Source of the DNA: Nitzschia sp. DOCU1
Lineage: Eukaryota > Bacillariophyta > Bacillariophyceae > Bacillariales > Bacillariaceae
Direction of reading: 5' to 3'
Length of the DNA: 64,000 bases
Assembly (NCBI GenBank): GCA_951394045.1
Contig: OX595988.1
Span: 1,751,352-1,815,351 of the forward strand
The translations under genes were made by a program, and so were the position numbers. The notes below the pieces were generated by a model. The model ran no database searches, was not told the DNA's origin, and was given only the letters and a program-made list of their open reading frames with translations. Shown here piece by piece: positions 745 through 20,190 of this stretch. How positions within the stretch are numbered: the first letter of the stretch is position 1; every line of letters starts with the position of its first letter.

Positions 745-3700
745 ATGGGCCGGTGGGATGCGCTGAAGCCCGAAGAAAGCAAGGCAGACGGGGGATCTTC
801 CAAAGGAAGTTCTCGAAAGGGCGTCCTGGAATCTGGCAATCGATGGAAACCACAAAATTCAGGAGATTCGACTTCTCGAGGGAGCCATCAACCTGGACAA
901 GCAACGCGGAATCAAACTTCTGCTGGTCAAACGAATGGAAAGGCATTGTCAACAATTCTATCCAATCAGCTGTGCTATTATAGACTGAAAAGCAAGGACT
1001 TTGAGTTGCAACGGACACTACGGACGCTGGAAGATTGCAATGCGTCGTCCAAAGCAGCCCTTGAGAATGTGTCGCTCGTTCTTCTGGTGGATTTATTAGA
1101 AACTGACGACAAGGCGATCCAAGAAAAGGCCCTGAACCTAGTCGATCGGAGACTGCAGGACTCCAAGCTAGCGTCTGATGAGAAAGTGGTAGAATGCGTG
1201 CAAAAGCTCACAAAGTTTGCTGAAGGTACAGCGTGGCACGGTTCTTTTCCAATCGAGTGTCTTTGCCGGCTGATCTCCTTGCATGCTAAAGCACTCCCCG
1301 CAGAAGAAACGGCTCACAAGATTGTAGGGCCGCTCTTTCTACCGACCCTACAGGTCACACAAGGCGACGAATCGATCTGTGTAGTCGTTTGCAATACAAT
1401 TGAGGCACTCCTTCTGCAGTCAAAGTTTGCTTCGGCAATCTTGTCACCATTGGTCGAGGATGTGTCCAACGACGGCAAAGAAGAAACGGTAGCTAATCCT
1501 ATTCGGTGCGAACTATTTCGCTCTCTTCAGGCTATGCTCTTTGCGGAAAAGACGGCACCTATACTACAGAGGAAAGCATGTGCAACCTTGGCTTGTGCTA
1601 TCGAGACTCTGCGAAAAACAGATGGGACTAGCAACACGATGCCCATTGATCTTGATCTGAGCGGATTGGAGCATTCCATCACCAGAAATCTCAACGCACA
1701 ACAATCAATGTATCATTCTTCACTCCTTCTACTACGGGCACTGCTTCGAACATATCCAAAAGCTATGACCCAGCTTGGACCGCGTCTATTTTTTCCAACC
1801 CCGGCAGGAACGAATAGAGCTGGGCGGCAAAAATGCACTATGTGTTCCTGCCCACTTGCAGAAGTCAGCCATTTTCTTCGCTCCGTTCATGATTCGATTG
1901 GTACAGATATGTCCGGTCTCTCGTTGGATTGTACAGAGATTCTTATTAGAGCTCTTCCGTGGGACCTCTGGCTGAAAAGGCAGCTTCGGCAACCCGTTTC
2001 TGGCTTTTATAGAAAGGTGGTGGATTCTTTGGCAAGTATCATCTTGATTTCCCGATGTGCTGTTCTTCCTCGACCTGAAGTGAAGTGGGACGACGAGCTT
2101 GGTCGCCTCTGTACGACTCTCTTTGCGGAGATTCCATGGGAAGACGACACTTTGGTTAGGGCTGGGGAAGAATTGTGGTCGACGCTGACAGCAGCACTCT
2201 CGGATCCAAGAACAAGTTCAAATTCGAAGTCAGGTATTGTTGCGATCTTGATTTCTGGTGTGGGTGGCCGCGTCACACCCCAGGGTGACTTGCTTCCGAT
2301 GGCACTACCAGCACGGCGGTATATGGCAAGTAAAGACGGAATGTCATTTTTGGAACAGATACGTGTAGGTATTTCTTCCTTGCGAGATGCGTCGTCATTG
2401 GAACTTTTCTGTGCCGTGCTGAGGACACGACCGGAGACGGTGGTCCCACTATGGGGAGAATTTCGAGGCTTTGTCGAACAACCAGCAAGTTGTGATGCCA
2501 TCAAGGTTGAAGTCCGCCTGCGTCTCGTTGAATCTTTGCTCTTGGGGAGACGTGATTTTTCATCCGACGAGCTACGTGGCCTAGAAGATACGCATTCGAT
2601 CACGAAGCTGGCATTTGACTTGCTGGAGACGCTCTGGGATGATTCCAATGTCAAGATCCGGTCCCGAAGTATGAATGCCTACGCCACTCTGCTGAAGGAC
2701 GACTGGGAGTACCTGAAACTGGACCATCCTCGCTTCACGAGCCACTTCGATGCCATGATACGACTTTGCTCGGATTCAAAAGCCGATGTACGAAGAGCTG
2801 CATGCAAAGCTATTGGCGAATTCTGCTGTCAGTCTCTAACTTTGCCCGCTCCTACCGAGGACAAGGAGCAGTGTGCCACATCCACTGTTGCAAGTCAGAT
2901 TTGTCGTACCATGCTGACTGGGCTGAAACACGAGAAGAACGCGGCAGCGCTGGCAATGGTATGTGTATCCGTCGATTGCACGTGCTATCTTCATTCAAAT
3001 ATCGATTGACAACTTCTTGTTTTTGTAACACAGTCAGTTTTTGCTTTGGGGAACCTGGCACTTGTCATGAGCGACCACGACTTGTGGGAGCTTATTCCGC
3101 TGGAGACTGTCGTCGAAATTGCGGGTTGTATATTTGATCTACTGGACGATTCGAACGACAAGGTGAGTAAAGCTCCGGTTGACGGGTGCTCGGCACTCAG
3201 TTTGGACGCATGCTAATGTGTGTGTCATGTCATCCACCAGGTGGCTGGAAATGCCATTCGCTCAATCGGGCACTGGAGTAGCATTCTAGCTCGAAGAGTC
3301 GGCGAGGATCGAATATCCGGCAACGATGATCACGTCCAATATCAAAGAACTCTCGTGTCAATTGTTCGGGGACTGTCCCTCAAAGTCGGTCGTACGTTGG
3401 CTCTAACTTCCCCCGAACAGCAGGCCACTATGAGCTGGAAGGAACGCTCGGCTGCCAAGAAACACGGCTGGGGTGCCTGCCATTCCTTGGGACGAGCCCT
3501 CGGTGCTATCACTGTCTGGGGGGAAGACGACAACGTGGACGTTTCGGAGAATCTGGAACAAGCTGGAAGGATTGCCGTTCAGAATCTAATCCAATGCTTG
3601 CGTTACGCCGCAAAACTACCGGAAAAGGTCGTTCTGGCGGCCATGACGTCGTTGCGTTCGATCAAGCCTTTGCAGCTCATCCGTGTGACTGGAAAGAAGA

Positions 3701-4499: not shown

Positions 4500-6075
4500 T
4501 TAGTTGTCACCTTGCATGACCCAAGGAGGGCATCCAACGGCGGGAAGATTTTCTTGTGGCGCCGCACAGCTCGCCACCTTTTCATCCCACGTATTCATGA
4601 CACAATACCACTCTCCATCCGTCGCTCGATCCATGACATGCGACTTGGCATCCATACTCTTGAGAAGGACCCTCCATTTGCCACACGACGGATTGCAACA
4701 ACGAATCCATTCGTAGGGTTCTTTGGAACTAGTCGTATTTTGTCGTTTCTTGTTTCTCGTCAGAGTCGGTTGACGAGCTTCATAGGCTTCGTTGCTTTGC
4801 AAACGTCGACACCAAACGCGAATATGCTTGCGAGTTCGAGCATCGGCGGCACTTTCGGGAGTGGTAGCGGCATCGTATTCTTCTTCTGGGGCGGAGCAAC
4901 GCGAACGTTCGGGGTCGTTCTTGTTCATGGAACAATACCATTTCGGAGGCAACTTGCGTTCGTCCACGACTCCCCGGAGACGGCGCCACTGACACGAGAA
5001 ATGAGGGTGAGAACAAGCTCGGCAGAGTAATCTGAACAGTAACGCTGCGTTACTTACCTTTTTGCACTTGTCACATTCGACCCACGTCGAATTGCTTTGT
5101 CCCGTGGTTTGTCCAAAGATGGATCCTTCGTCACGTTCAAATTCATTGTCACCGCCACTCGCATTGGAACTAGCACTCATGACGTTGCTACCAGACGCAT
5201 CCGAATCACCAGGCTTACCACCCAGCTCATCCTTGCCGCGCTTGCCCTTTTTCTTTTTCTTATTGGCAGCCGCCGCCGCTGCAGCAGCCGACGATCCACT
5301 CCCACGAGACGGTCGAGAATCAGCATCCTCTCCATCGGCCACGGAAGTTGCAGCATCCTTGGAAATAGCAATCGCAGATGCCGTGGAGCCCGTCGATGAC
5401 AAAACCGTCGCATTATGACGTTCCAGCCATAAATGCTTGCGAGCAGCTTGGACCAAATAACTTCGATCCAATCGTACCGATTGTCCCTTGTAAGTGTATT
5501 GCAAATCATCATCATCCGAATCGGTATCGACAATACTACCATTAGCCGAGTATTGATCTTCTTCTAGGGCTCGTCGCATTTGTTCATTGACGGCTACTTG
5601 GGCGGCCGTCAAGCCACTACCTTCGGGGACGGCAATTTTCACGCGATGCTGTTTGCGGGCCTTTTTTGCCAAGCGACCCTCGCGACCTTCCAAACCTCCT
5701 TCCTTGTCCTGTATGGATAAGAGAGTGTGAGTGAGAATGATCGTTCCACATATTTGCGAGCTTTGCAATACAAGTACTTGCCTTTCGCTTGAGTTTTTGC
5801 TTCTTGAGCTTTCGGGGACCTCCTTCTTGAGTAGGAGCAGCAGCAACGTCCTCGTCTTCGGCTACTTTGGCTCGCATGGCTGTGGGCAAGCGTTTGTTTT
5901 TGCGAGATGCCTTGCGTTTGCGAACCACATCCGCGGCAGTAGCCATTGGCAAATTAGCGGAATTAGCCTGATCGGCAGGATGATTGGCAGCATCCTCGGC
6001 ATGACCTGCCGACGATGCGGGGCTGGAAGCACCACCCATGGATTCCGAGTGAGAAACAGGAGATGAGCGGTCCAT
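4500..6075 (-). CDS. Protein with two CW-type zinc fingers
   Basis: Three exons are read on the minus strand: 6075-5782, 5708-5058 and 4988-4500, about 477 aa. Intron 1 (73 nt) begins GCAAGT after AAG, so it is a GC-AG intron; the nearby GT would shift the frame. Intron 2 (69 nt) has no stop and is divisible by three, so an unspliced reading also looks open. Only splicing restores the CW signature CDKCKKWRRLR at residues about 306-349. A second CW finger lies at 408-460 (WIRCCNPSCGKWRVL, later EWYCVMN and SCAAP). The N-terminal half is low complexity with lysine-rich stretches that could be nuclear signals and an alanine run near residue 215. CW domains read histone H3 lysine-4 methylation in other eukaryotes, so a chromatin role is inferred. 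No enzymatic domain is visible. Confidence 0.85.
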
Positions 6076-6575
6076 TGCGTTTGTTTTTGTTGTGTGATTG
6101 TTTGCAATTCCTATGACACAATCACGTTGTTGAATGAAGGGATGTAGGAAATGAAATGACAGCTCTGTTGAAAAAGTCGGCACACGGACGGTGGAAGCGG
6201 CGGCGGCCGCTGTCGGGCATTATGTAGGAATCTGTACCAAGTCTACTTTGCCGCCAAAATCGCCGCGCGAAACTGTGCTGAAAGTTTGGTATGAGCCAGC
6301 CTACCTACTGCTCATGCCCAGAAAAGTACTGTATCACATAAAGGCGGGAAGAAAACGCGAGTCTGCCTCCCAAGCCAAAATGGCAACTGGGCAGTGGTGG
6401 CATTGCACATCTACTATGCGTATCTATTTCTACACGAGACAATTTCTCTGAACTATCGTACCGAAGTAAATGATGTGCTAGATCAGATGATTAGTATTTG
6501 GTATTGTGGCTGCAAGAGACGAGAAACCTTTTGATTGTATCCTGGCCGTAAAGACGCTAAACGACACTGTCGGAA
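6076..6575. other. Intergenic, upstream of the CW gene
   Basis: Presumed promoter and 5' UTR of the CW gene, and the DNA beyond the 3' UTR of the first peroxiredoxin. A short open frame at 6191-6451 (+) has no recognisable content. No RNA gene or repeat was seen. Confidence 0.4.
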
Positions 6576-6632
6576 TTTTCGGCCCCTCCAATCCAATTCT
6601 TTCTGGATGTTAAGAGGAGCGTCATTCATAAC
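6576..6632 (-). promoter_or_regulatory. SECIS-like hairpin of peroxiredoxin 1
   Basis: On the minus strand, about 95 nt after the stop, the sequence reads ATGA-TGAC-free text as follows: the 5' core TGAC is at 6624-6621 (context AATGACGCTCC) and the 3' partner CGAA is at 6581-6578. Between them an 8-bp helix forms (GCTCCTCT with GGAGGGGC, two G-U pairs). An AA follows in the apical part, then a short upper stem (ATCC with GGAT). This is the layout of a eukaryotic form-2 SECIS element, which recruits selenocysteine machinery to an upstream UGA. The 3' quartet has C where G or U is usual. It matches the arrangement after the paralogous gene. Confidence 0.7.
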
Positions 6633-6718
6633 CAAAAGGTTCGTTTTCTCACAGGCAACAAACTCCAACTAGTCCTACCATCGAAACCTATCACAGTTCA
6701 ACCCAAAGTCGTAAAACC

Positions 6719-7408
6719 TTAGCTGGATTCAGCGATTCCCTTCAAGAGGGCATCCGCAAGGGTAGCCTCCGGGAAGTCATCACCTGCAGGGTCGAATTCA
6801 GGATCCTCAGCAAGAGCGAAGAACTTTACCTCACCATCAACAACGTAAAGGGCGTATCGCTTGCAACGACCGAGCAATCCTTTCCCAATGGGACCAGGGT
6901 GGACCAGTTCCATGTCGCAGGCCTTGGTGAAGGCACCGGTGGGATCACCGTACATCTTGATCATGGAGTCGGTAGTCTTTTGGTCAGCGGCCCAAGCCTT
7001 CATGACGGCTGGAGGATTCAAGTAAAGTTAGCGTCATCGTTGCTGCGAGAACAAAAAACTCGGCATTCCTTACCTCCGTCGTTAACGCAGTAGACCATGA
7101 CTTCATCTAGGCCTGCTGCTTTAAGTGCGTCTTGTTTTTCCAGATAGCCTGGCACTTGCCGCGCCGATCAAGTGGGAGTAAAAGCGCCTGAACAAGAAGT
7201 TAGAGTGAGCCGAAAGGAAGATAAAGTTAGCCAAAGAGATCCTCAACGACACATTCCCTGATTGCTGGAAGAAACTCAACGTACCTGGCAGACCAAGGAT
7301 GATAACCTTCTTTCCCTTGGTGTACTCGGCCACATTGACCTTCTCAGGCGGAAAGCCGAAGTCAAGTTCGACGCTTGGGACCTTGTCCCCTACTTTGATG
7401 GGAGCCAT
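6719..7408 (-). CDS. Type-II peroxiredoxin, selenoprotein (Sec at residue 48)
   Basis: Three exons are read on the minus strand: 7408-7285, 7187-7074 and 7008-6719, 175 aa. Joined, they give the Prx5/type-II thioredoxin-fold peroxidase: LDFGFPPEKVNVAEY, LPGAFTPT, VPGYLEKQDALK, VYCVNDG, AVMKAW, GLLGRCKRYALYV and DDFPEATL. After GAFTPT, where the family has its peroxidatic cysteine, the codon is TGA (7170-7168), followed in frame by S-ARQVPGY. With a SECIS-like hairpin downstream and the same change in the paralogue at 8385-9062, this TGA is read as selenocysteine. The predicted role is peroxide reduction using a thiol donor. No targeting peptide is visible, so it is probably cytosolic. A TGACGTCA palindrome lies 239 bp upstream of the start. 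Conventional gene calling would split this gene. Confidence 0.9.
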
Positions 7409-8263
7409 GTTGATGATGTCTACTCTTTCGATGATGATCGAAATATGAGAAAGGACGCCGAGAGCGAGACGAAGAGTGCAGCCAATGTAATATCGTTGTT
7501 CTCGAGATCTATTTGCGCCTTCGCATCACATGCGCCGGCGCGCCTCTTGGCATCAATGAGTCAGTAAAGATAGGGTACTGAGTCTACGTAAGATCTACGA
7601 CTTCATCGCGAGATTCTTCGATTTCCAAGGCCTTTCTCAGGCTAAATGACGTCAGCAATAAACCGCAACGAGAAAGTATGTCGACGCAAGAAATACCCTT
7701 CTTGCGATGTGCCTACTATTGGACTAAAGTTAAAACTGCTCGTAGTACGTAGCTCATTCTAGTTCTTAGTAGAACCAGCAACCGAGTGCTGTGAATTGGT
7801 GAAAGCTACCACGCCCAATGCAGTTATGAGAAATTCAGCGAGAAGAGAGGGTTGCGAAATGATGGTACCGCGTTCCAGGAACTACCAGTATTGCATCGAA
7901 CACAGTGTTTGTTCCAATTCAAAGGAATTCATGTGGAATTGATCCGAGTAGCTGGGCCATAATGATGGGCACTACTTACATCGTGGAGTAGCACCATTTA
8001 ATGTCGACCCATCCATAGATTGCTGTTCTACTTAGCTTGGCTGTGTGGCAACTACGGCAAAAACAGACCCCGGACCTTTCTTACCAGGAAGAGCTTACTA
8101 AGTCAAGAACTAAAACATTGGCGGATACCCAAGTAAAATGAGATGAAGAAGTATCGTGTTGAATTGTGTTCTATGGTTTAGTATTTTGAAACTTAGCCTG
8201 CTCGCCAGAGTTTTCATTTGTGTGCATCCCTTGCCACTAGACGCTAAGTGACTTAATTGGGAT
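7409..8263. other. Region between the two peroxiredoxin genes
   Basis: This is the promoter side of peroxiredoxin 1 and the DNA past the 3' UTR of peroxiredoxin 2. It contains TGACGTCA, a full CRE-type bZIP palindrome, at 7647-7654. No further gene, RNA or repeat was recognised. Confidence 0.5.
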
Positions 8264-8325
8264 TTCGTCGGCCCTCCTTAACCAAACATTACGATTGATA
8301 CTTTGGGGAGCGTCATTCATACCTC
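8264..8325 (-). promoter_or_regulatory. SECIS-like hairpin of peroxiredoxin 2
   Basis: About 70 nt after the stop on the minus strand lies TATGAATGACGCTCC, with the TGAC core at 8315-8312. It is followed by CCCAAA and, after about 24 nt, by GGAGGGC and the 3' partner CGAC at 8270-8267. The lower helix (GCTCCCC with GGAGGGC) has one C-A mismatch. The 5' core and the GGAGGG(G)CCGA side are nearly identical to the hairpin after peroxiredoxin 1, while the loop differs. Conserved core with a changed loop is what a functional SECIS would show. Confidence 0.65.
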
Positions 8326-8384
8326 AAATGAAACCCTCGCGAAACATTCTACTTTTCCAAATTACTTACCATCTTCCCAAACTC

Positions 8385-9062
8385 TTAGGCAGACTTCTTG
8401 GCCATCTCAATCAGAGCAGGGGCCAAAGTCTTTTCGGGGAAGTCATCACCAGCAGGGTCGATTTCGGACTCGGCAATGGCGACGGCCTTAACGACACCGT
8501 CGACAACGTACATGGCGAATCGCTTGCATCGGCCGATGATTCCAACGCTTTTGGGACCGTCAGCAGTAAGTTCCATGCCAACGGCCTTGGTGAATTCACC
8601 AGAGGGGTCACCGAACATGGAGATCATGGAGCCAGTGGTTCCTTGGTCCTTTTCCCAAGCAGCCATGACAGCTCTGTGCAATTGAACACGTCTAAGTGAG
8701 AAAAACAAGTGTGGGTGACATCCGAATTCTATCGATTCCTGAACTTACCCATCGTTGACGCAGTACACGACGATTTCGTCGATGCCTGCCTCCTTAAGTG
8801 CGTCTTGAGATTCCAGATAGCCTGGAACTTGCCTGGAAGATCACGTAGGCGTGAAAGCTCCAGGAAGACCCACAATGGCAACCTTTCGTCCTTTGCAGTG
8901 TTCTGCCATGTCAACCATCGAAGGAGGGAAACCCGAATGCAGGTTGATAGCCGGGATCTTCGATCCTGGTGTAATAGCCGCGAACGCAGCAGAGTACCCA
9001 CCAAAGTGGGCAGCCGAAGCTGTGGACGCCAAGGTGGCGGCCAAAAGACTGAAGAGTTTCAT
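8385..9062 (-). CDS. Type-II peroxiredoxin with signal peptide, selenoprotein (Sec at residue 74)
   Basis: Two exons are read on the minus strand: 9062-8749 and 8673-8385, 200 aa. The N-terminus MKLFSLLAATLASTASA is a signal peptide, followed by HFGGYSAAFAAITPG, which could be a plastid transit segment or the start of a secreted protein. The mature part is a Prx5/type-II peroxidase closely related to the neighbour: VGLPGAFTPT, then TGA at 8843-8841, then SSRQVPGYLESQDALK, VYCVNDG, AVMAAW and GIIGRCKRFAMYV. The TGA occupies the peroxidatic cysteine position and the frame stays open after it. Gene order and sequence point to tandem duplication, with one copy gaining a targeting peptide. The two genes share no intron before the Sec codon: this copy lacks intron 1 of its neighbour but keeps the one after CVND. 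Confidence 0.9.
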
Positions 9063-9431
9063 GATGCTTACAACTGTTTGTCAGATGAAACAATGAGCTT
9101 CTGCATCACTTTGACAACAAACCGATCAGCGCCCGAAATCGGCAAAAGATGTGCATATTTTCCAAGGATTTCGGTGGTTGGAAGCGCGCGTATGAGTACG
9201 TCAGTCTGAGTCAGTCCAGATTGAGCAGAGCGAGATTGAAATTTGGGTGCTGCAATTTGCGTCTGTCGTTCATCCGCAAGAATTACAGCCGAACGGCCGT
9301 AATTTCTGCTGTCTGCTGTCTGCAGTCCTCCCAGTCATTCATTGGCATCCAGTACAATTTAACTACCGCGAGATGGGACGCACAACCTACGTCTCGCCTA
9401 CATCCCAAACGACTTGGGAAGCCATGCTCCT
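9063..9431. other. Intergenic, upstream of peroxiredoxin 2
   Basis: This holds the presumed promoter of peroxiredoxin 2 and the 3' flank of the AAA gene. No gene or repeat was recognised. Confidence 0.4.
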
Positions 9432-11156
9432 TTAGTGGTTCGAAGAAGGTATCGTATGGAGAAATCGTAGTGGTTGCCCTCTTCCATGAATATCCGCTTG
9501 AGATTTCATGGCTTGGGTACGTAAAATGGCTTGCTCGAAATGTTTCTGTTGTACTTGCGCACTGCCTTGTCGTACTGCCAACAACGCCGCATCATTTACG
9601 ACATTTCTCAAATCCGATCCTGAACATTGAGCAGTCCAAGCATCCGAAGCTAACATGTCCCAATCAATATCCTGCAAATGACAATTCGTAGAACGAGCAT
9701 GGACGCAAAAGATATCTCGGCGGCCTTTCGCGTCGGGATAGGACACGTGGATTTGACGATCCAATCGACGAAGAATGGCAGGATCCAAGACATCGACCCG
9801 ATTCGTGGCGGCAATGAGAATGATGGTGACTTCTTCTTGAGTAGTAAAACCATCCATTTCCGTCAAGAGTTGATTCAGTGTCGATTCGCGTTCGTCATTG
9901 CCATGCAGACCACCATAACCACGTGATTTGGCTAGAGCATCAAACTCGTCAATAAAAATGATTGCCGTCGGGGGCGGTGGTGGTACTGATGCTGTCGATG
10001 ATGAAATATTCCACAAACGATTCCACCAGGTTTGTTGACGCCGCGATCGTTGCAAGGCTTGACGCTTGGCCTGCGCAAACAAGGCCCGAACTCGAGCTGC
10101 ACCTCGTCCCACGTACATCTCCACAAATTCGCTCCCACTACACGACAAAAAGGCCGCATTGGCTTCTCCGGCCACGGCTCGTGCCAACAGCGTTTTTCCT
10201 CCTCCTGGAGGTCCATGTAGTAGAATTCCTCGGGGTGGTTTAGCCCCCAGCGCTTGATACGAATGTGAATGTCTGAGGTAATACACCAGTTCTTGAACTT
10301 CAGGCATGATGGGCTCCAATCCTGCCACATGAGAAAAGCGAGTGTCAATATTGTCTTGTAGAAGCGTTTGTTTCATGTCTCCATTATTTCCATTGTGTAT
10401 ACTGTGGAAAATCTTGTACACGAATGCCAAGTACACAAACGGCAAGGCCACCAAGAGTGGGCCTGTCAATCGCTGCCATAACGATTCTGGCAAGGCCGAA
10501 ACGTGATGGCAACCATGCTGCGACAGCAATTCCAACAAATCCCGTTGCAGTCCGGGACTATTGGGTGGTAATTGAGCTCGTTTCCACACGGAATTTCCTT
10601 CTCCTTCTTGATAGAGAATCTCATCCGATCCCACCATTGCCTTTGTCACTAGACCTTGCCGTGCCGCCAATCGCAACATGCCCAGCGATACATTTTCAAT
10701 CGTTTTTCGTTGAGGTGAATTACTCAGAAATTTCCATAAGAAAGAAAGTAACCAATACTGCCGTTGACTCTTTGTCGTCATGGACGACGACGACTTCTCT
10801 TTGTGTTTCTTGTTTGTTCTGGTTCCTCCACTAGTAGTCGGTTGTGCTCCTGCAATGACCCGTTGATGATTATTGTGATTGCCTTGACGACGTTGATAAT
10901 AAGCAGCCACAGCTGCCAAGATGACGATGGCCGTCCCTGCCGCCGTCCATTTCTTGTCCAAGAATGCTTCGTCCTTCCACCATTCTCGTAAGGTTCGAAG
11001 GACCTTTTGTTTCCAGTTCGACTGCAAGTCCATGTGACCGTTTTCTTCAAAGTCTTCCTCCATTACGACTCGTGGCGATGTTTGTTCGCTCTGTTCGCTC
11101 TGTTTCAAGGCCATGGGATCTAGTCGATGCGACGGCACTTCATCCTTGGGGGCCAT
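9432..11156 (-). CDS. FtsH-type membrane AAA ATPase without protease domain
   Basis: Single exon, 574 aa from the ATG at 11156. Two membrane segments are predicted (about residues 71-87 and 232-250), flanking a basic region that would face one compartment. The AAA module has Walker A GPPGGGKT (315-322), the pore motif EFVEMYVGRGAARVR, Walker B IIFIDEFDAL (about 397-406) and ATNRVDVLDP. These are FtsH-family features. The M41 protease domain with HEXXH is absent; the protein ends soon after the AAA lid. This recalls inactive FtsHi-type proteins, though those usually keep a degenerate protease part. The second region of homology reads ILRRLDRQI instead of the usual LRPGRFDRQ, so residues next to the arginine finger are lost. 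It may be a chaperone-like unfoldase or a partner subunit. A LINE has inserted 21 bp upstream of the ATG. Confidence 0.85.
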   Translation of the reverse strand: MAPKDEVPSHRLDPMALKQSEQSEQTSPRVVMEEDFEENGHMDLQSNWKQKVLRTLREWWKDEAFLDKKWTAAGTAIVILAAVAAYYQRRQGNHNNHQRVIAGAQPTTSGGTRTNKKHKEKSSSSMTTKSQRQYWLLSFLWKFLSNSPQRKTIENVSLGMLRLAARQGLVTKAMVGSDEILYQEGEGNSVWKRAQLPPNSPGLQRDLLELLSQHGCHHVSALPESLWQRLTGPLLVALPFVYLAFVYKIFHSIHNGNNGDMKQTLLQDNIDTRFSHVAGLEPIMPEVQELVYYLRHSHSYQALGAKPPRGILLHGPPGGGKTLLARAVAGEANAAFLSCSGSEFVEMYVGRGAARVRALFAQAKRQALQRSRRQQTWWNRLWNISSSTASVPPPPPTAIIFIDEFDALAKSRGYGGLHGNDERESTLNQLLTEMDGFTTQEEVTIILIAATNRVDVLDPAILRRLDRQIHVSYPDAKGRRDIFCVHARSTNCHLQDIDWDMLASDAWTAQCSGSDLRNVVNDAALLAVRQGSAQVQQKHFEQAILRTQAMKSQADIHGRGQPLRFLHTIPSSNH

Positions 11157-12658: not shown

Positions 12659-15600
12659 TCACTCGTCAGCAGCATCGCGTTCCTCGTACGGATGCAGATT
12701 CCGGATATTGTATGTTTGTTGCACCGCTCCTTTTCTGATGCGAATAGAGCCATTGTCATTAATGTGCACGATCTCATACGGACCGCTATAAGGATTCGTC
12801 CCATACTTGCGGGATTGTTCATTACGGACCATCACCTTCTGTCCTACGCGATACCGGTAAACTCTTCGCGTCTTGTTTTCAGCTGTGTTATTTTGGATAA
12901 TACGAGATTCCTTTCGTTCCTTAATTTATTTCCAGTTAGCTTCGAACCGGGTATTTAGGATAGCGTCGCGGCCAAACACTAGCTGTGTTGGCGTCGCTTG
13001 CATCGTTGTGTGATACGTTGCGCGTACTGCGAACATAGTGGCTGCAAGGACTCCGTCCAGTGACTCCGTGTCTTCGGAGTTTTGCAACTCGAAAGTGCGA
13101 ATCATGTTCCCTATGGTTTGGTGAACTCGCTTGATAATTGAATTAGCCTGCGGGTTTCGCGCTGTAATTGGCTTGGTCATTACGCCGTAGTCTTCGCGCA
13201 CCATTCTTCGGAATTCTCCCATGAATTCAGTTCCGCGGTCATAAATAATCTTTTGTGGCCACGGGTATCTCGTAAACCACGCCATTTCGGCCGCACTGGC
13301 TATCGAAAAGGCTTCTTTATTTGCTATACGTACCATCTCGAACCATCCGGTTGCGGGATCTATCATCGTGAGACACCATAGTTGTAGTGTCTTCTTACTA
13401 CCTAGTTGTTTTATCTTATATGGACCTATCAGGTCGACACATAGCGTATCCCAAGGGTCTATTTCTGCCGCCTTGGGTGGAAGATGCCCGTACTTGATTG
13501 TCTTTCGCTTTGTCAGCTGACAGGTCGGACAGGACTTGCAGATCCGCTCGACATCGCCGCGGATGTTCTTCCAGTAGAAGTGTTGTCGAATCGTTTGTTC
13601 GGTACGCGTTTCTCCTGGGTGACAGAGCATCTCGTGATACCACTTGACGCACCGCTTCTGGAGACTCGTTGGGAGAACAATCTTGTCCTCGCGTACTATT
13701 AGTTCTTGCTTCTTTCCGCCCCCACGATAGACTTTGACTGAATATCGCGGGTTTGTACGTACTTTAGATAATAAGGCGCGGTCGGCATTCTGCATGCGCG
13801 CTATGTTCTTGTAAGTGAGGGGGAATGCATCGCGCGGTAATTCGTCGCCCGCCAAAAACTCATTTAAGTGAGATTCGGGGAAAGCTCTATCGTCGAGATC
13901 GAGTCGACTAAGCGCGTCCGCAACGACGTTGTGTTCGCCCTTGATATAGACGAGTTCGGGGCCAAACTCCTCGATTAGGAGGCGCCAACGCATGACGCGC
14001 TCCGTGTTAAATTCTTTATACGTAAGATTTTTATGGTCTGTGAAGACTCTGATTCGCTGTCCCAAAAGGATATTGCGAAATTCTTTAAGTGTTTCGACGA
14101 TAGCTAAAAGCTCTCGTTCCGTCGTAGTATAGCGCGTTTGCGCTGGGTTCAGCTTTCGACTATAGAACGCAATCGGTTTTCCGCGTTGCGATAACACTGC
14201 ACCTAGCTGAGTATGACTAGCATCGGTGTGTATTTCGAATGGTATGTTGAAATCGGGGTATGTTAGTAGTGTCTGTTTACTTATAATTCGTTTCATTGTG
14301 TCGAAGGCATTCTGCTCGACCGGACCCCATTGCCATTTGGCTTCTTTAGAAGTTAGTGCACTCAGAGGGGCTAAAACTTCAGAGCGACGAATCCACATGT
14401 TGCGGTAGTAGTTAACTACGCCTATGAACTTACGTAGCTCGCGTTTATTGGTAGGTGCTTTCATAGCGTGAATAGCCTCTACTTTCTTTGCGACTGGTTG
14501 GATTCCGTCTCGCGTTATCCAGTACCCAAGGTATTCTAGTTCGCCCCGGGCGAAGAACGACTTTCGGGCGTTCACCTTAAGACCGGTGTCTTTTAGACGT
14601 TTGAAAATGACTTCTAGTTTCTCTAGGTGGTCATCAAAATCGCCTTTAGTTAGTTCTAGTAGATCGTCGATGTACACTCGTACGTACTCTAGATCCTCAA
14701 AGAGGGTGCCCATTTTCTCTTGGAAAATGTCGGGACTATTCGAGAGTCCCATCGGCAAGCGTTGCATCTCGTACTTACCCCAAGGTAGTACGATAGTACA
14801 TAGCTTCTTACTATCTGGACTTAGCTCTATGTGATAGTAGCCCATGTTGAGGTCGAGACTCGTCACGTACTGAAAGCCTTCTAGCTTCATCAGTAAGTCC
14901 TGAATCTTCGGGATTGGATACGGCTTGCGTTTAATCCGTTTGTTCAATTCTCTAAAATCGTTGATGAATCGAACTGTTCCATCCTTTTTGGGGATGATAA
15001 AGGTGGGCGCACCCCATTCGGAGCGGTTCACCTTTTTGAGTACTCCGACTTGACAGAGTCGTGCGACTTCATCGCGGAGAGTGCGCTCGTACGCTTTCGG
15101 TACAGGGTACGCTCTAGCATGGTACGGCTTGGCACCTTCTACTAGTTCAATGTCATAGGGGGCCCCACGCCATCGGCCGAGGGTACCGTCGAATAGAGTC
15201 TGGTATTTTGCTAGTAGCTGTTCTAGCTTACTCTGCTCGTCCTTACTAAGGTGAGCTTGCTCTCTAGCAATGCTACGTGCATCGGCTTTCTCGTACTTGG
15301 CGTCGAGAATTTCCTTGACGCGGTCCGACATCTCGTCGACGTGTCCACGTTCATGTACATGATACGACGTCGCCGTCGTCGCATCTATTTCTTTCATTGG
15401 CATACGTGCATCGTCCCATTCTACTTCCATAGCCTTGAAGTTGATCACTAGACCTAGCTCTTGCATGAGGTCTCTGCCTATAATCATGTCGTAGTTACCT
15501 AGATCATCTGCTAGGTGAAAGTCCCACTCGATCAATCGATCGTCGTGTAGTTCCGGGAAACTGAGTTGCGTGGTCACGCGTTCAGTACACTTATAACTAC

Positions 15601-16096
15601 CGCTCATAGTTGTGAATACAGTAGTCGCTTTTTGGGTCTTTATTTTTAGTTTGCTAGCACTGCTCTTCTTCCAGAGACAGCCACTACCGCCAGAGTCAAG
15701 AAGTGCTTTGACGGTTACTACTTGTTGCCAACGTCCGCCGCGTTGGTTAACACGTGCAAACGTGATCGGTACTAGATGACTGGATTTTTGTCATTTGTTT
15801 GAGCCTACAGTTCGACTAACTCGAATCGTGTTCAATAAGTAAAGCTCGCGCTCACGCTGTGCTTCCGCCAGACATGCATCGAGAGAGCTGAAACTTCGAG
15901 ATTTTGTTAGTTTAACGAAATTTCGACTTGCGTGTGATTTTTGCAAATTTTGTGTTGTGCTTGTAACGCTATCGCTATTGTAAAATGATTCCATCTGTTG
16001 GACATCGTCCCTTTGGATAAAACTAGTGTAATCGTTCAATTCACCACTATTATTACTGTTGTATTCATATTCACACGTAGTCACCGGCTCACGTCG
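12659..16096 (-). pseudogene. Gypsy element 1 pol, two nonsense mutations
   Basis: It aligns along its whole length with the intact pol of element 2. Protease, reverse transcriptase (YIDD), RNase H (HTDASH), integrase (HHCC and DDE) and a GPY/F module are all present in order. An arginine codon has become TGA at 15793-15791, just before the protease. A leucine codon has become TAA at 12928-12926, after the integrase core. A substitution turns the integrase glutamate context SIIERVHQ into SIIKRVHQ, removing the third catalytic acid. The frame is otherwise intact. Confidence 0.93.
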
Positions 16097-17312: not shown

Positions 17313-17729
17313 TGCACTACGCTGAAAGTACGATGAAAAAGTTGTAGTGGAAATAATTGTGAGATCTAAGTTATCGCTGATTCTATCGCTCCTAGACCAC
17401 CAGGGTCTTTCCTCAACGCATCCTACATGCGTTGGATACAACTCCCACCGATCTAGCTTCTCGAATCTCTTCAAGGTCCATAGCTAGATACCGTTGGAAG
17501 TTCTATTCCAGTAGTAGACGTCGACGGCTCGCCGCGCTCGCCGTTGTCGTCGTCATTGCTCGTCAGCCGCGCCGGCCTTGCCCGTCCGTCCGTGCGTCCA
17601 CAGACGTTCGACCAAGTCGACGTCAGCCAGGTATGTATGTAAGGTATGTAGGTACTACACGTAGGCCATTGTGTGTACTCTTTACTCTAACTACTTGTTA
17701 GATCTAGAGGGGTATTCTAGTGTACTGCA
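17313..17729 (-). repeat. LTR of gypsy element 1 (5' LTR in element sense)
   Basis: 417 bp, about 98 percent identical by eye to the LTR at 12213-12628. Most differences cluster around 17600-17655. Confidence 0.95.
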
Positions 17730-17733
17730 GAAG

Positions 17734-20190
17734 CAGTTTCCATTGAAGCCCCCCACGGGGGCTACAATGTCGAGAGCCGATACCCTCTTCCAAGGGCTCA
17801 AGAAATTCATGACGGCCGCGTTGCCGAGGGACCGACAGAGTCGGGACCCCTGGATTTCCGAAAGAACATGGAAGCTGGTGGACGAACTCGCGGCAATGCG
17901 CCGGGAGCAACCCCACCTCAGGGCACGGTGCAAGCAACTTTCTTGGCAGATCTCTCAGTCCTTCAGGGCTGATAGGCTTGCCCAGACCAGGAAGGCCGGC
18001 GAGACCATTGAAAGTCTCGTGAGAGGGGAGACCCCCGGGGGCTTGCAGGGGGCATGGGATACGTTCAAAGGCTGGTATCGTGAGGCCAGCAAACAGCCTC
18101 CCAAGCCCTCTCGAATCGAACTTGAGCGCATGTCGGCAGAGTACGCGGCGTTTTATGCAAAGGGCATGGATCTCCCGCCAGAATCCATCCCTGTGCTTGT
18201 GGCACCTGCGAATATCTCTGACCACACCCCCCAGGAAGATGAGATTGCTGCGGCAGTACGACGTCTCCGTCCCAACCGGGCACCAGGCCCGTCTGGGATG
18301 AAATCCGACCATTTAAAGAGATGGTTGGCCGACACCACGCGAGAGGAAAACCCAGATGGACGGGCGTGGACCGCACTGGTGGAACTAGTGCAACATGTAT
18401 ACTCAACTGGAGATATGCCAGTTGAGTTATCGTGGGGCACTATGATCCTACTCCCCAAGGGCGAAGGGCAGTACAGGGGGATCGGCCTCCTGGAAATTGT
18501 CTGGAAATTAATTACGAACATCATCGATGCGCGTATTAAGGCCCAGGTCGAATTTCACGACTCCCTCCATGGCTTCCGAGCCAAGAGGGGGACGGCTACT
18601 GCAATAATCGAGACGAAGTTGCTCCAACAACTCGCTACGGCCCAACAATCGGCACTTTTCACGATCTTCTTAGATCTGCGGAAAGCCTACAACACGTTGG
18701 ACCGAGAGCGAGTGCTGGATATCCTAGAAGGATACGGGGTGGGCCCAGCGGCCCTGCGTCTACTCCGGATCTTTTGGGACCGCCAGCAAGTCATAGCGAA
18801 GCAGAGTGGTTACTATGGCAACCCGTTCCGGGCCACCAGGGGAGTCACCCAGGGAGATATTATCTCCCCCACAATATTCAATATCATATGCGATGCAATC
18901 GTGCGATACTGGCTGTCCATTGTGAGCGATGTGGGGACAGATGCAGTGTCAGGAATGGGCAGTCGCATAGTGGAACGATCCGCGTTCTTCTATGCTGATG
19001 ACGGGGCGATTTCCTCCCGTGATCCGGAATGGCTGCAGAGGGCAATCGATGTCCTGGCTGACCTCTTCGGACACGTGGGACTGAAAACCAACACAGAGAA
19101 GACTGAGGTCATGACCTGTCATCCCGGCTACATTTGTACCGGGACTTTGGAGGCGGCCTATGGTCGCCGAATGCATGAGGAAGGCCCTTGCTACCGTGAA
19201 CGGAGCCGCCGGCGGGTGGAATGTCCGGAATGCAAGGCCCCCCTCACTGCAGGCTCCTTGGGGCCCCACATGCAACGTGCGCACGGGAAGGAAAGCCTCC
19301 CCGAGGCGCCTCCACCCATGAGGGTGGCGGCCACGTCGGTAGCGAGTTTCCCTCGTATCCTCACGGACATATGTTGTCCAGTGGAAGGATGCACGGGACG
19401 GGCGAAAACCAGATCGGCGCTGAGAAGGCACTTTGCCTTCCGGCACCCCAGAGATAGCCTCTGCATTCTGGAAGAGGGCCCAGACCCTCTTCCGAAATGC
19501 GAGATGTGCGGAATGCACGTGCCTTCAAAATTGTTGATTGGTGTGAGAGGTCATCGGAACACAGCGTGTTGCCGAGACGGGACCGAACGACGACGACAAA
19601 GGCAGGCAGCAGAGGATGCCCGTCGGGCCCGTGAAGTGGTTTTCCACTTCACGGTCTACGACCAGCCCCTCAACTCGGTGGAAACATTTAAGTACCTTGG
19701 TAGGCCCCTGTCCAGCACGGATAGCGACTGGCCCGCCGTGTACCGGAATATTGCCAAGGCCCGACAGAAGTGGGGTATGGCGGCCGGCGTCCTGGCGAGA
19801 CAAGGGGCCTCACCAAGAATCTCAAGTATGTTCTACAAAGCGGTTGTTCAGAGCGACGTGCTCTATGGTGCAGAGACGTGGGTTATTACACCCACTCTGC
19901 TGAAACTATTGGAAGCGTTCCACCACCGGGTCGCCCGCCAGATGACTGGCAAACGACCCAAGCTCGACCCACGATCGGGCATGTGGACGGTACCACCGAT
20001 AGCAGAGGCGTTGGAGGCAGCGGCCCTTCTGCCGATCCAGGATTACATCCAGAATCGACAGAATCGGATCGCTGACTACGTTGCAACTCAGCCCATCCTC
20101 GAACTTTGTACGGCGGCAGGACGACAGCGTGGCTCCCCACCCAATCGGCGGTATTGGTGGGAACAGGCTGGTGTGGCGGAACTAGTATAG
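17734..20190 (+). CDS. LINE ORF, 3' part: reverse transcriptase with zinc fingers
   Basis: The frame resumes in phase after gypsy element 1 and its target duplication; 818 residues follow. Reverse-transcriptase motifs appear in order: PGPSGMKSDHLKRW, then LHGFRAKRGTATAI, FLDLRKAYNTLDRE, GVTQGDIISPTIFN and FYADDGAI (catalytic ADD). After the RT core lie three Cys/His clusters: CPECKAPLTAGSLGPHMQRAH, CCPVEGCTGRAKTRSALRRH and CEMCGMHV with GHRNTACC. They resemble C2H2-type fingers and may bind nucleic acid. The last third (KYLGRPLSS, LYGAETWV) is the usual LINE C-terminal region. No RNase H was recognised. The frame is intact, so only the gypsy insertion and the 5' end disable the element. Confidence 0.92.
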   Translation, partial: QFPLKPPTGATMSRADTLFQGLKKFMTAALPRDRQSRDPWISERTWKLVDELAAMRREQPHLRARCKQLSWQISQSFRADRLAQTRKAGETIESLVRGETPGGLQGAWDTFKGWYREASKQPPKPSRIELERMSAEYAAFYAKGMDLPPESIPVLVAPANISDHTPQEDEIAAAVRRLRPNRAPGPSGMKSDHLKRWLADTTREENPDGRAWTALVELVQHVYSTGDMPVELSWGTMILLPKGEGQYRGIGLLEIVWKLITNIIDARIKAQVEFHDSLHGFRAKRGTATAIIETKLLQQLATAQQSALFTIFLDLRKAYNTLDRERVLDILEGYGVGPAALRLLRIFWDRQQVIAKQSGYYGNPFRATRGVTQGDIISPTIFNIICDAIVRYWLSIVSDVGTDAVSGMGSRIVERSAFFYADDGAISSRDPEWLQRAIDVLADLFGHVGLKTNTEKTEVMTCHPGYICTGTLEAAYGRRMHEEGPCYRERSRRRVECPECKAPLTAGSLGPHMQRAHGKESLPEAPPPMRVAATSVASFPRILTDICCPVEGCTGRAKTRSALRRHFAFRHPRDSLCILEEGPDPLPKCEMCGMHVPSKLLIGVRGHRNTACCRDGTERRRQRQAAEDARRAREVVFHFTVYDQPLNSVETFKYLGRPLSSTDSDWPAVYRNIAKARQKWGMAAGVLARQGASPRISSMFYKAVVQSDVLYGAETWVITPTLLKLLEAFHHRVARQMTGKRPKLDPRSGMWTVPPIAEALEAAALLPIQDYIQNRQNRIADYVATQPILELCTAAGRQRGSPPNRRYWWEQAGVAELV

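Follow-up and report, generated by a model that had tools for sequence, protein, structure and literature searches.

The window, that is the whole 64,000 nt stretch of Nitzschia DNA analysed, contains two tandem genes for Prx5-type peroxiredoxins on the minus strand, lying head to tail with copy A upstream of copy B (Table 1). GT..AG ends were found in all three of the modelled introns. In the spliced models of both copies the sole internal stop is a TGA codon (residue 74 in A, 48 in B) followed in due course by a terminal TAA, and no frameshift was detected. The initial annotation had placed these TGA codons directly after GAFTPT, at 8843-8841 and 7170-7168, and held that the frames continue beyond them with conserved family sequence. 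The positions were confirmed on the minus strand, as was the intactness of the frames, with one internal stop each and scores for the Pfam Redoxin domain (PF08534) of 82.9 (A) and 82.8 bits (B) against a cut-off of 26.6. The introns, the SECIS-like elements and two further TGA-bearing paralogues are additional to that annotation.

Table 1. Features of the two genes and of related loci (positions without a prefix are those of the window; those with the prefix G000 refer to contigs of the source assembly)
Feature	Position	Strand	Remarks
Copy A gene	9062-8385	-	One intron
Copy A exon 1	8749..9062	-	N-terminus resembling a signal peptide; GAFTPT-TGA; reaches VNDG; splice sites GT..AG in the gene model
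Copy A TGA (predicted Sec74)	8841..8843	-	Peroxidatic Cys position; PRDX5 alignment made with paralogue B
Copy A intron	8674..8748	-	GTAAGT..GCACAG
Copy A exon 2	8385..8673	-	Terminal TAA
Copy A SECIS-like element	8267..8317	-	AATGAC, GCTCCCC / GGAGGGC (one C.A mismatch), CGAC; not the minimum-energy fold
Copy B gene	7408-6719	-	Two introns
Copy B exon 1	7285..7408	-	Without presequence
Copy B intron 1	7188..7284	-	Gene model
Copy B exon 2	7074..7187	-	Contains GAFTPT-TGA
Copy B TGA (predicted Sec48)	7168..7170	-	Gene model and PRDX5 alignment
Copy B intron 2	7009..7073	-	Near the site of the copy A intron
Copy B exon 3	6719..7008	-	Terminal TAA
Copy B SECIS-like element	6573..6627	-	TGAC, GCUCCUCU / GGAGGGGC; UAAC internal loop; upper stem AUCCA / UGGAU; CGAA
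Copy C (L056)	G000:C2:407501-408368	+	TGA after GAFTPT; SECIS-like element 76 nt after stop
Copy D (L058)	G000:C13	-	TGA after GAFTPT; SECIS-like element 143 nt after stop; one splice junction provisional
tRNA-Sec genes (five)	G000:C5:639526-640069 (four, tandem) and C6:887673-887758		Rfam, ARAGORN

Both proteins combine the Redoxin domain with PxxxTxxC(U), which we take to be the Prx5 motif, and with a conserved Arg that is presumably the catalytic one; the active site reads PGAFTPTU, and GRCKR is aligned with RRLKR of PRDX5. The top matches of copy B among solved structures are named peroxiredoxin 5, and its TGA residue, read as Cys, falls opposite the peroxidatic Cys in the alignment with PRDX5 (4k7i, 1.5e-30). 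Copies A and B align with each other at this residue without a gap. The in-frame TGA occupies a residue that is Cys in homologues (PRDX5, listed relatives and the paralogue L006). The pair shares with PRDX5 (4k7i and 1oc3, both presumably human structures) the same domain and the PGAFTPxC(U) active site, and differs from it in having a predicted Sec where PRDX5 has Cys. The resolving Cys of human PRDX5, which we take to be C151 near the C-terminus, is without counterpart in A and B, as the C-terminal tails of their gene models contain no Cys; a resolving Cys of the animal type is thus absent.

Copies A and B are 64% identical (112/174), with dN 0.31, dS 1.29 and dN/dS of approximately 0.24. 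The two frames are under purifying selection, and the dS value implies that the TGA has persisted while each synonymous site changed, on average, more than once. As an in-frame TGA would halt normal translation of either copy, the genes could be taken for decaying pseudogenes with one nonsense mutation each. This is exceedingly improbable in view of the low dN/dS, the spliced frames free of any other internal stop or frameshift, the SECIS-like elements present and the sharing of the codon by four paralogues.

These additional paralogues, copies C and D, were found in the source assembly (52.1 Mb, 63 contigs) by a search with the copy B protein, and both have TGA following GAFTPT. A fifth Prx5 gene (L006) is of the Cys type and reads TPGC; a TGA seen in it was discarded, being intronic and not the catalytic codon. 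A whole-genome search for the Redoxin family gave 13 matches and missed copies B, C and D, which have short exons, so that the count of four TGA-bearing Prx5 genes is a lower bound. The initial annotation had pointed to the same codon in a pair of genes; this applies to both copies, but the set is larger, the pair belonging to a family with no fewer than four predicted Sec-Prx5 genes in this genome. It should also be noted that copy C apparently needs a 3 nt micro-exon, AGG (G000:C2:407787-407789), for the conserved STRQVPGY, with the in-frame alternative lacking it reading STRLPGY. Judged by eye, the N-termini of A and C are like those of secreted or plastid proteins and that of D like those of mitochondrial proteins; B has no presequence. 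The earlier claim that one copy has a signal peptide and the other none fits the appearance of the sequences: the N-terminus of A, MKLFSLLAATLASTASA, resembles a signal peptide by eye, and B begins at the start of the domain.

Two protein searches, one with each copy, matched 7954 and 4863 proteins, and the best 120 of each were listed (170 different proteins). In the 120 proteins listed for copy B, the catalytic residue is W in 67, C in 27 (including P0089 and P0091, short proteins aligned there by chance), a gap in 20 and another letter in six. W was found at this residue in at least 92 of the 170 listed relatives. The best reading of this W is a TGA called under a code with TGA=W, since in the closest listed relatives (64–75% identical) W stands in place of the TGA of the window, and many other relatives begin just downstream of the residue. 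If so read, conservation of the codon would extend from the two further paralogues to many metagenomic relatives. Viral contigs were scanned for DNA of the relatives and nothing was found. The named listed relatives of copy A are from Nitzschia (69%) and, as transcripts, from Corethron (63%), Dactyliosolen (56%) and Eucampia (52%), all of which we take to be diatoms, with the dinoflagellate Polarella lower in the list (51% to copy B). Three diatom transcript proteins (P0042, P0141 and P0153) are garbled exactly at the catalytic site.

A tree was constructed from 130 of 173 rows, the remaining 43 having been dropped for lack of a readable FTP..W/C motif or for shortness; the rows comprised 94 Sec-like sequences (92 of them listed relatives with W) and 36 Cys sequences. 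In this tree A belongs to an all-Sec group of 17 (support 94) and B to another of 11 (95*), and both lie within a larger all-Sec set of 28 (96*). The neighbours of A are P0004, P0006 and P0007 and those of B are P0003, P0001 and P0002. The duplication behind the pair seems to predate its split from several metagenomic relatives. With copies C and D added (132 rows), the B group is starred (96) and no starred set retains A; C and D are placed elsewhere in the tree than A and B. The best tree of the relatives has 12 changes of Sec/Cys label, of which the starred branches force four (132 rows) or six (130 rows). The longest contig given for P0003, which is B-like, and for P0004, which is A-like, is in both cases 4594 bases, a shared figure that would fit an old tandem order.

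Within both 3′ flanks of the pair, an AATGAC core is followed by a helix and a closing CGA, these SECIS-like elements starting 68 (A) and 93 nt (B) past the stop codons. The core is common to the pair and to the TGA-containing GPx (three), SelT and SPS2 genes of the genome. The element of copy B lies within the minimum-energy fold, with an 8-bp helix, the internal loop and a 5-bp upper stem, and its stretch folds slightly better than shuffled sequences (z −1.31; 16/200 as good). For copy A the SECIS fold has −9.9 kcal/mol versus −17.4 kcal/mol for the best alternative, and the stretch is no more stable than shuffled versions of it (z 0.20; 107/200 as good). The SECIS of copy B is strong and that of copy A is weak, forming the weakest link of the case. 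When the sequence between the two genes was scanned under looser SECIS criteria, no better element for copy A came up, and an Rfam scan of positions 5900–9500 with E up to 10 detected no SECIS, the only match being a snoRNA far under threshold.

A first SECIS scan requiring an apical AA missed four of the seven TGA genes (SPS2, two GPx and SelT) and was replaced by a pattern consisting of AATGAC, a 7-bp helix in which one mismatch was allowed, a loop of 10–60 nt and NGA. This pattern was shaped on the seven TGA genes, the pair included, and was already fixed when copies C and D came to light. It was present in the 3′ flanks of all seven TGA genes (500 nt each; 1000 nt for SPS2) and in neither of two Cys-gene flanks, against a background of 246 matches among 20000 random 500-nt pieces from the rest of the window. 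Over the whole window six matches were obtained, two of them being the pair, and five of 42 other loci (284,058 nt, both strands) contained one, three of these (L044–L046) overlapping on contig C3. A stricter pattern gave three matches in the window versus a shuffled mean of 0.55 and a maximum of three over 200 shuffles. The cleanest test is provided by copies C and D, as the unchanged pattern matched both of their flanks.

A published search rule places an unpaired AA 10–13 nt after the NTGA quartet (passages of PMC2375036). In copy B the AA follows by 10 nt and in copy A by 8 or 9 nt; several other elements of the genome appear by eye to be without it. MAFFT aligned six SECIS elements without regard to structure and so gave no basis for a covariance model; helix II of 11 elements was instead tabulated from fixed anchors. 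Of its 77 cells, 73 are paired, with two to five standard pair types per position, a high degree of pairing that is partly by construction, the elements having been picked for at most one mismatch. The predicted coding region of the TGA-bearing SPS2 gene (L028) is followed by three SECIS-like elements (2716–2790, 2939–3009 and 3240–3332), the first two of which sit in similar repeated surroundings.

The genome was also searched for selenium machinery, the absence of which had been named in the initial annotation as a ground for rejecting selenocysteine. Absence was not what was found. Ten matches to tRNA-Sec were obtained with Rfam, five of them above the cut-off (a tandem row of four on contig C5, and a single one on C6), and ARAGORN called all five as tRNA-Sec with anticodon TCA. 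Three of the five sub-threshold matches were given to ARAGORN and proved to be Ser or Leu tRNAs on contig C63. Several tRNA-Sec copies are not new for diatoms, as the passages available from a report on Fragilariopsis cylindrus mention eleven predictions, four of which were counted (PMC5330540). SepSecS was identified through TIGR03531 (339 bits with 307 aa given; cut-off 224.85). For eEFSec (380 aa given) the best match is 5izk (4.4e-100), and its match to TIGR00475 falls under the curated cut-off; its N-terminal part recurs, incomplete but almost identical, approximately 5 kb away (L022 and L023; G000:C5:3467000-3473200). Candidates read from single frames are a fragment of SBP2, an L7Ae-domain frame with its best match to SECIS-binding protein 2 (7zjw_B, 5.4e-14; 139 aa given), and PSTK, reached through the KTI12 family and judged by eye. 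Two matches to SPS/selD were found, one of which (SPS2) has TGA in the expected place. Together these form a near-complete predicted gene set for Sec synthesis and insertion.

Among four GPx matches, three have TGA at the usual Sec site and the fourth has Cys, and one Rdx-family match, presumably SelT by its motif, likewise has TGA at the usual Sec site. With TGA contained in several genes, and W at the site in many listed relatives, a genome-wide reassignment of TGA to an ordinary amino acid might be considered. It is scarcely credible, since the GPx, SelT, SPS2 and Prx genes that were read have their in-frame TGA at the Sec site and long TGA-free frames exist, for example that of SepSecS (544 aa).

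The pair is thus very probably composed of eukaryotic selenoprotein genes of the Prx5 (Redoxin) type, with UGA read as predicted Sec. A further explanation is that the UGA is read through with another residue, or removed by RNA editing or splicing, the latter having been named by the initial annotation as a possible refutation. This is most unlikely: the TGA of copy A is mid-exon, the garbling of P0042, P0141 and P0153 at the site is as would be expected if the mRNA keeps its UGA, and with another residue or with editing the Sec machinery and SECIS-like elements would be unneeded. Compatible with selenocysteine, and adding to it, is the notion that the UGA also serves as a selenium switch, whereby at low selenium the messages would be truncated or degraded and their role would pass to the Cys-type Prx5 (L006). 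Selenoprotein mRNAs from genes with an intron downstream of the TGA are open to nonsense-mediated decay. Both A and B have one intron in this position, and a Cys-type Prx5 is encoded in the genome; such a switch is nevertheless considered rather unlikely.

Selenocysteine at the peroxidatic position of a peroxiredoxin occurs in bacterial selenoproteins of the PrxU type, in which the SECIS adjoins the UGA. The pair differs from these in having its SECIS-like element in the 3′ flank. It resembles the algal and diatom peroxiredoxins with predicted Sec that were traced by way of their SECIS elements; the report on them credits Thalassiosira pseudonana with two, Ostreococcus tauri with one and O. 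lucimarinus with three (PMC2375036; diatom report 2007). Those proteins are compared here by description, and the passages of the source drawn upon do not mention a tandem order. A cluster of three PRX genes was reported in a dinoflagellate in 2020, going by the portion of that report available; the diatom studied here has two genes in tandem and two elsewhere. As far as these passages extend, Sec-peroxiredoxins of this sort are already known, and the pair is a new example.

Standard gene calling breaks such genes or, it seems, swaps Sec for Trp. With W in 67 of the 120 listed copy B relatives, diatom peroxide defence may be more selenium-dependent than annotated. A genome that combines at least four predicted Sec-type genes with a Cys paralogue makes for a good system in which to ask why Sec is kept or lost.

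For synthesis of the proteins, SBP2 on the 3′ SECIS would recruit eEFSec carrying Sec-tRNA-Sec, and UGA would be read as Sec. The selenolate would then attack hydrogen peroxide or an organic hydroperoxide, and the resulting selenenic acid would be resolved by a thiol, whether that of the Cys within VYCVND of the same protein or that of glutathione, before reduction of the resolved enzyme by glutaredoxin or thioredoxin. The VYCVND residue, Cys75 in B and Cys101 in A, is found in most Sec forms and could be the resolving residue. At the Cys75 position, Cys was present in 58 of 66 W rows versus six of 25 Cys rows (Fisher p 1e-8; 29 of the 120 rows left out), and in a larger set in 84 of 96 Sec-like versus 13 of 36 Cys rows. 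On independent pairs the link between Sec and Cys75 was not significant (median p 0.5), and it therefore stays a hint. A literature search, little of which was aimed at this point, returned no paper on the VYCVND residue as a partner of Sec. The metagenomic protein P0019 is a fusion of a Grx domain and a Prx5 domain whose Sec site is occupied by W, which suggests glutaredoxin as the reductant.

Copy A would probably be a plastid or secretory-pathway enzyme and copy B a cytosolic one, and the pair may accordingly serve two compartments. A system of at least four Sec-Prx5 genes in several compartments, with Sec pairing with the VYCVND Cys, which lies in the strand ahead of VND at a position that differs from those in human PRDX5, and with regeneration by glutaredoxin, is a tentative proposal, somewhat more doubtful than probable.

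Reverse transcriptase frames were also observed a few kb from the pair, at 12926–15607 on the minus strand and 17671–20190 on the plus strand of the window. The former frame additionally has RNase H and integrase-type domains.
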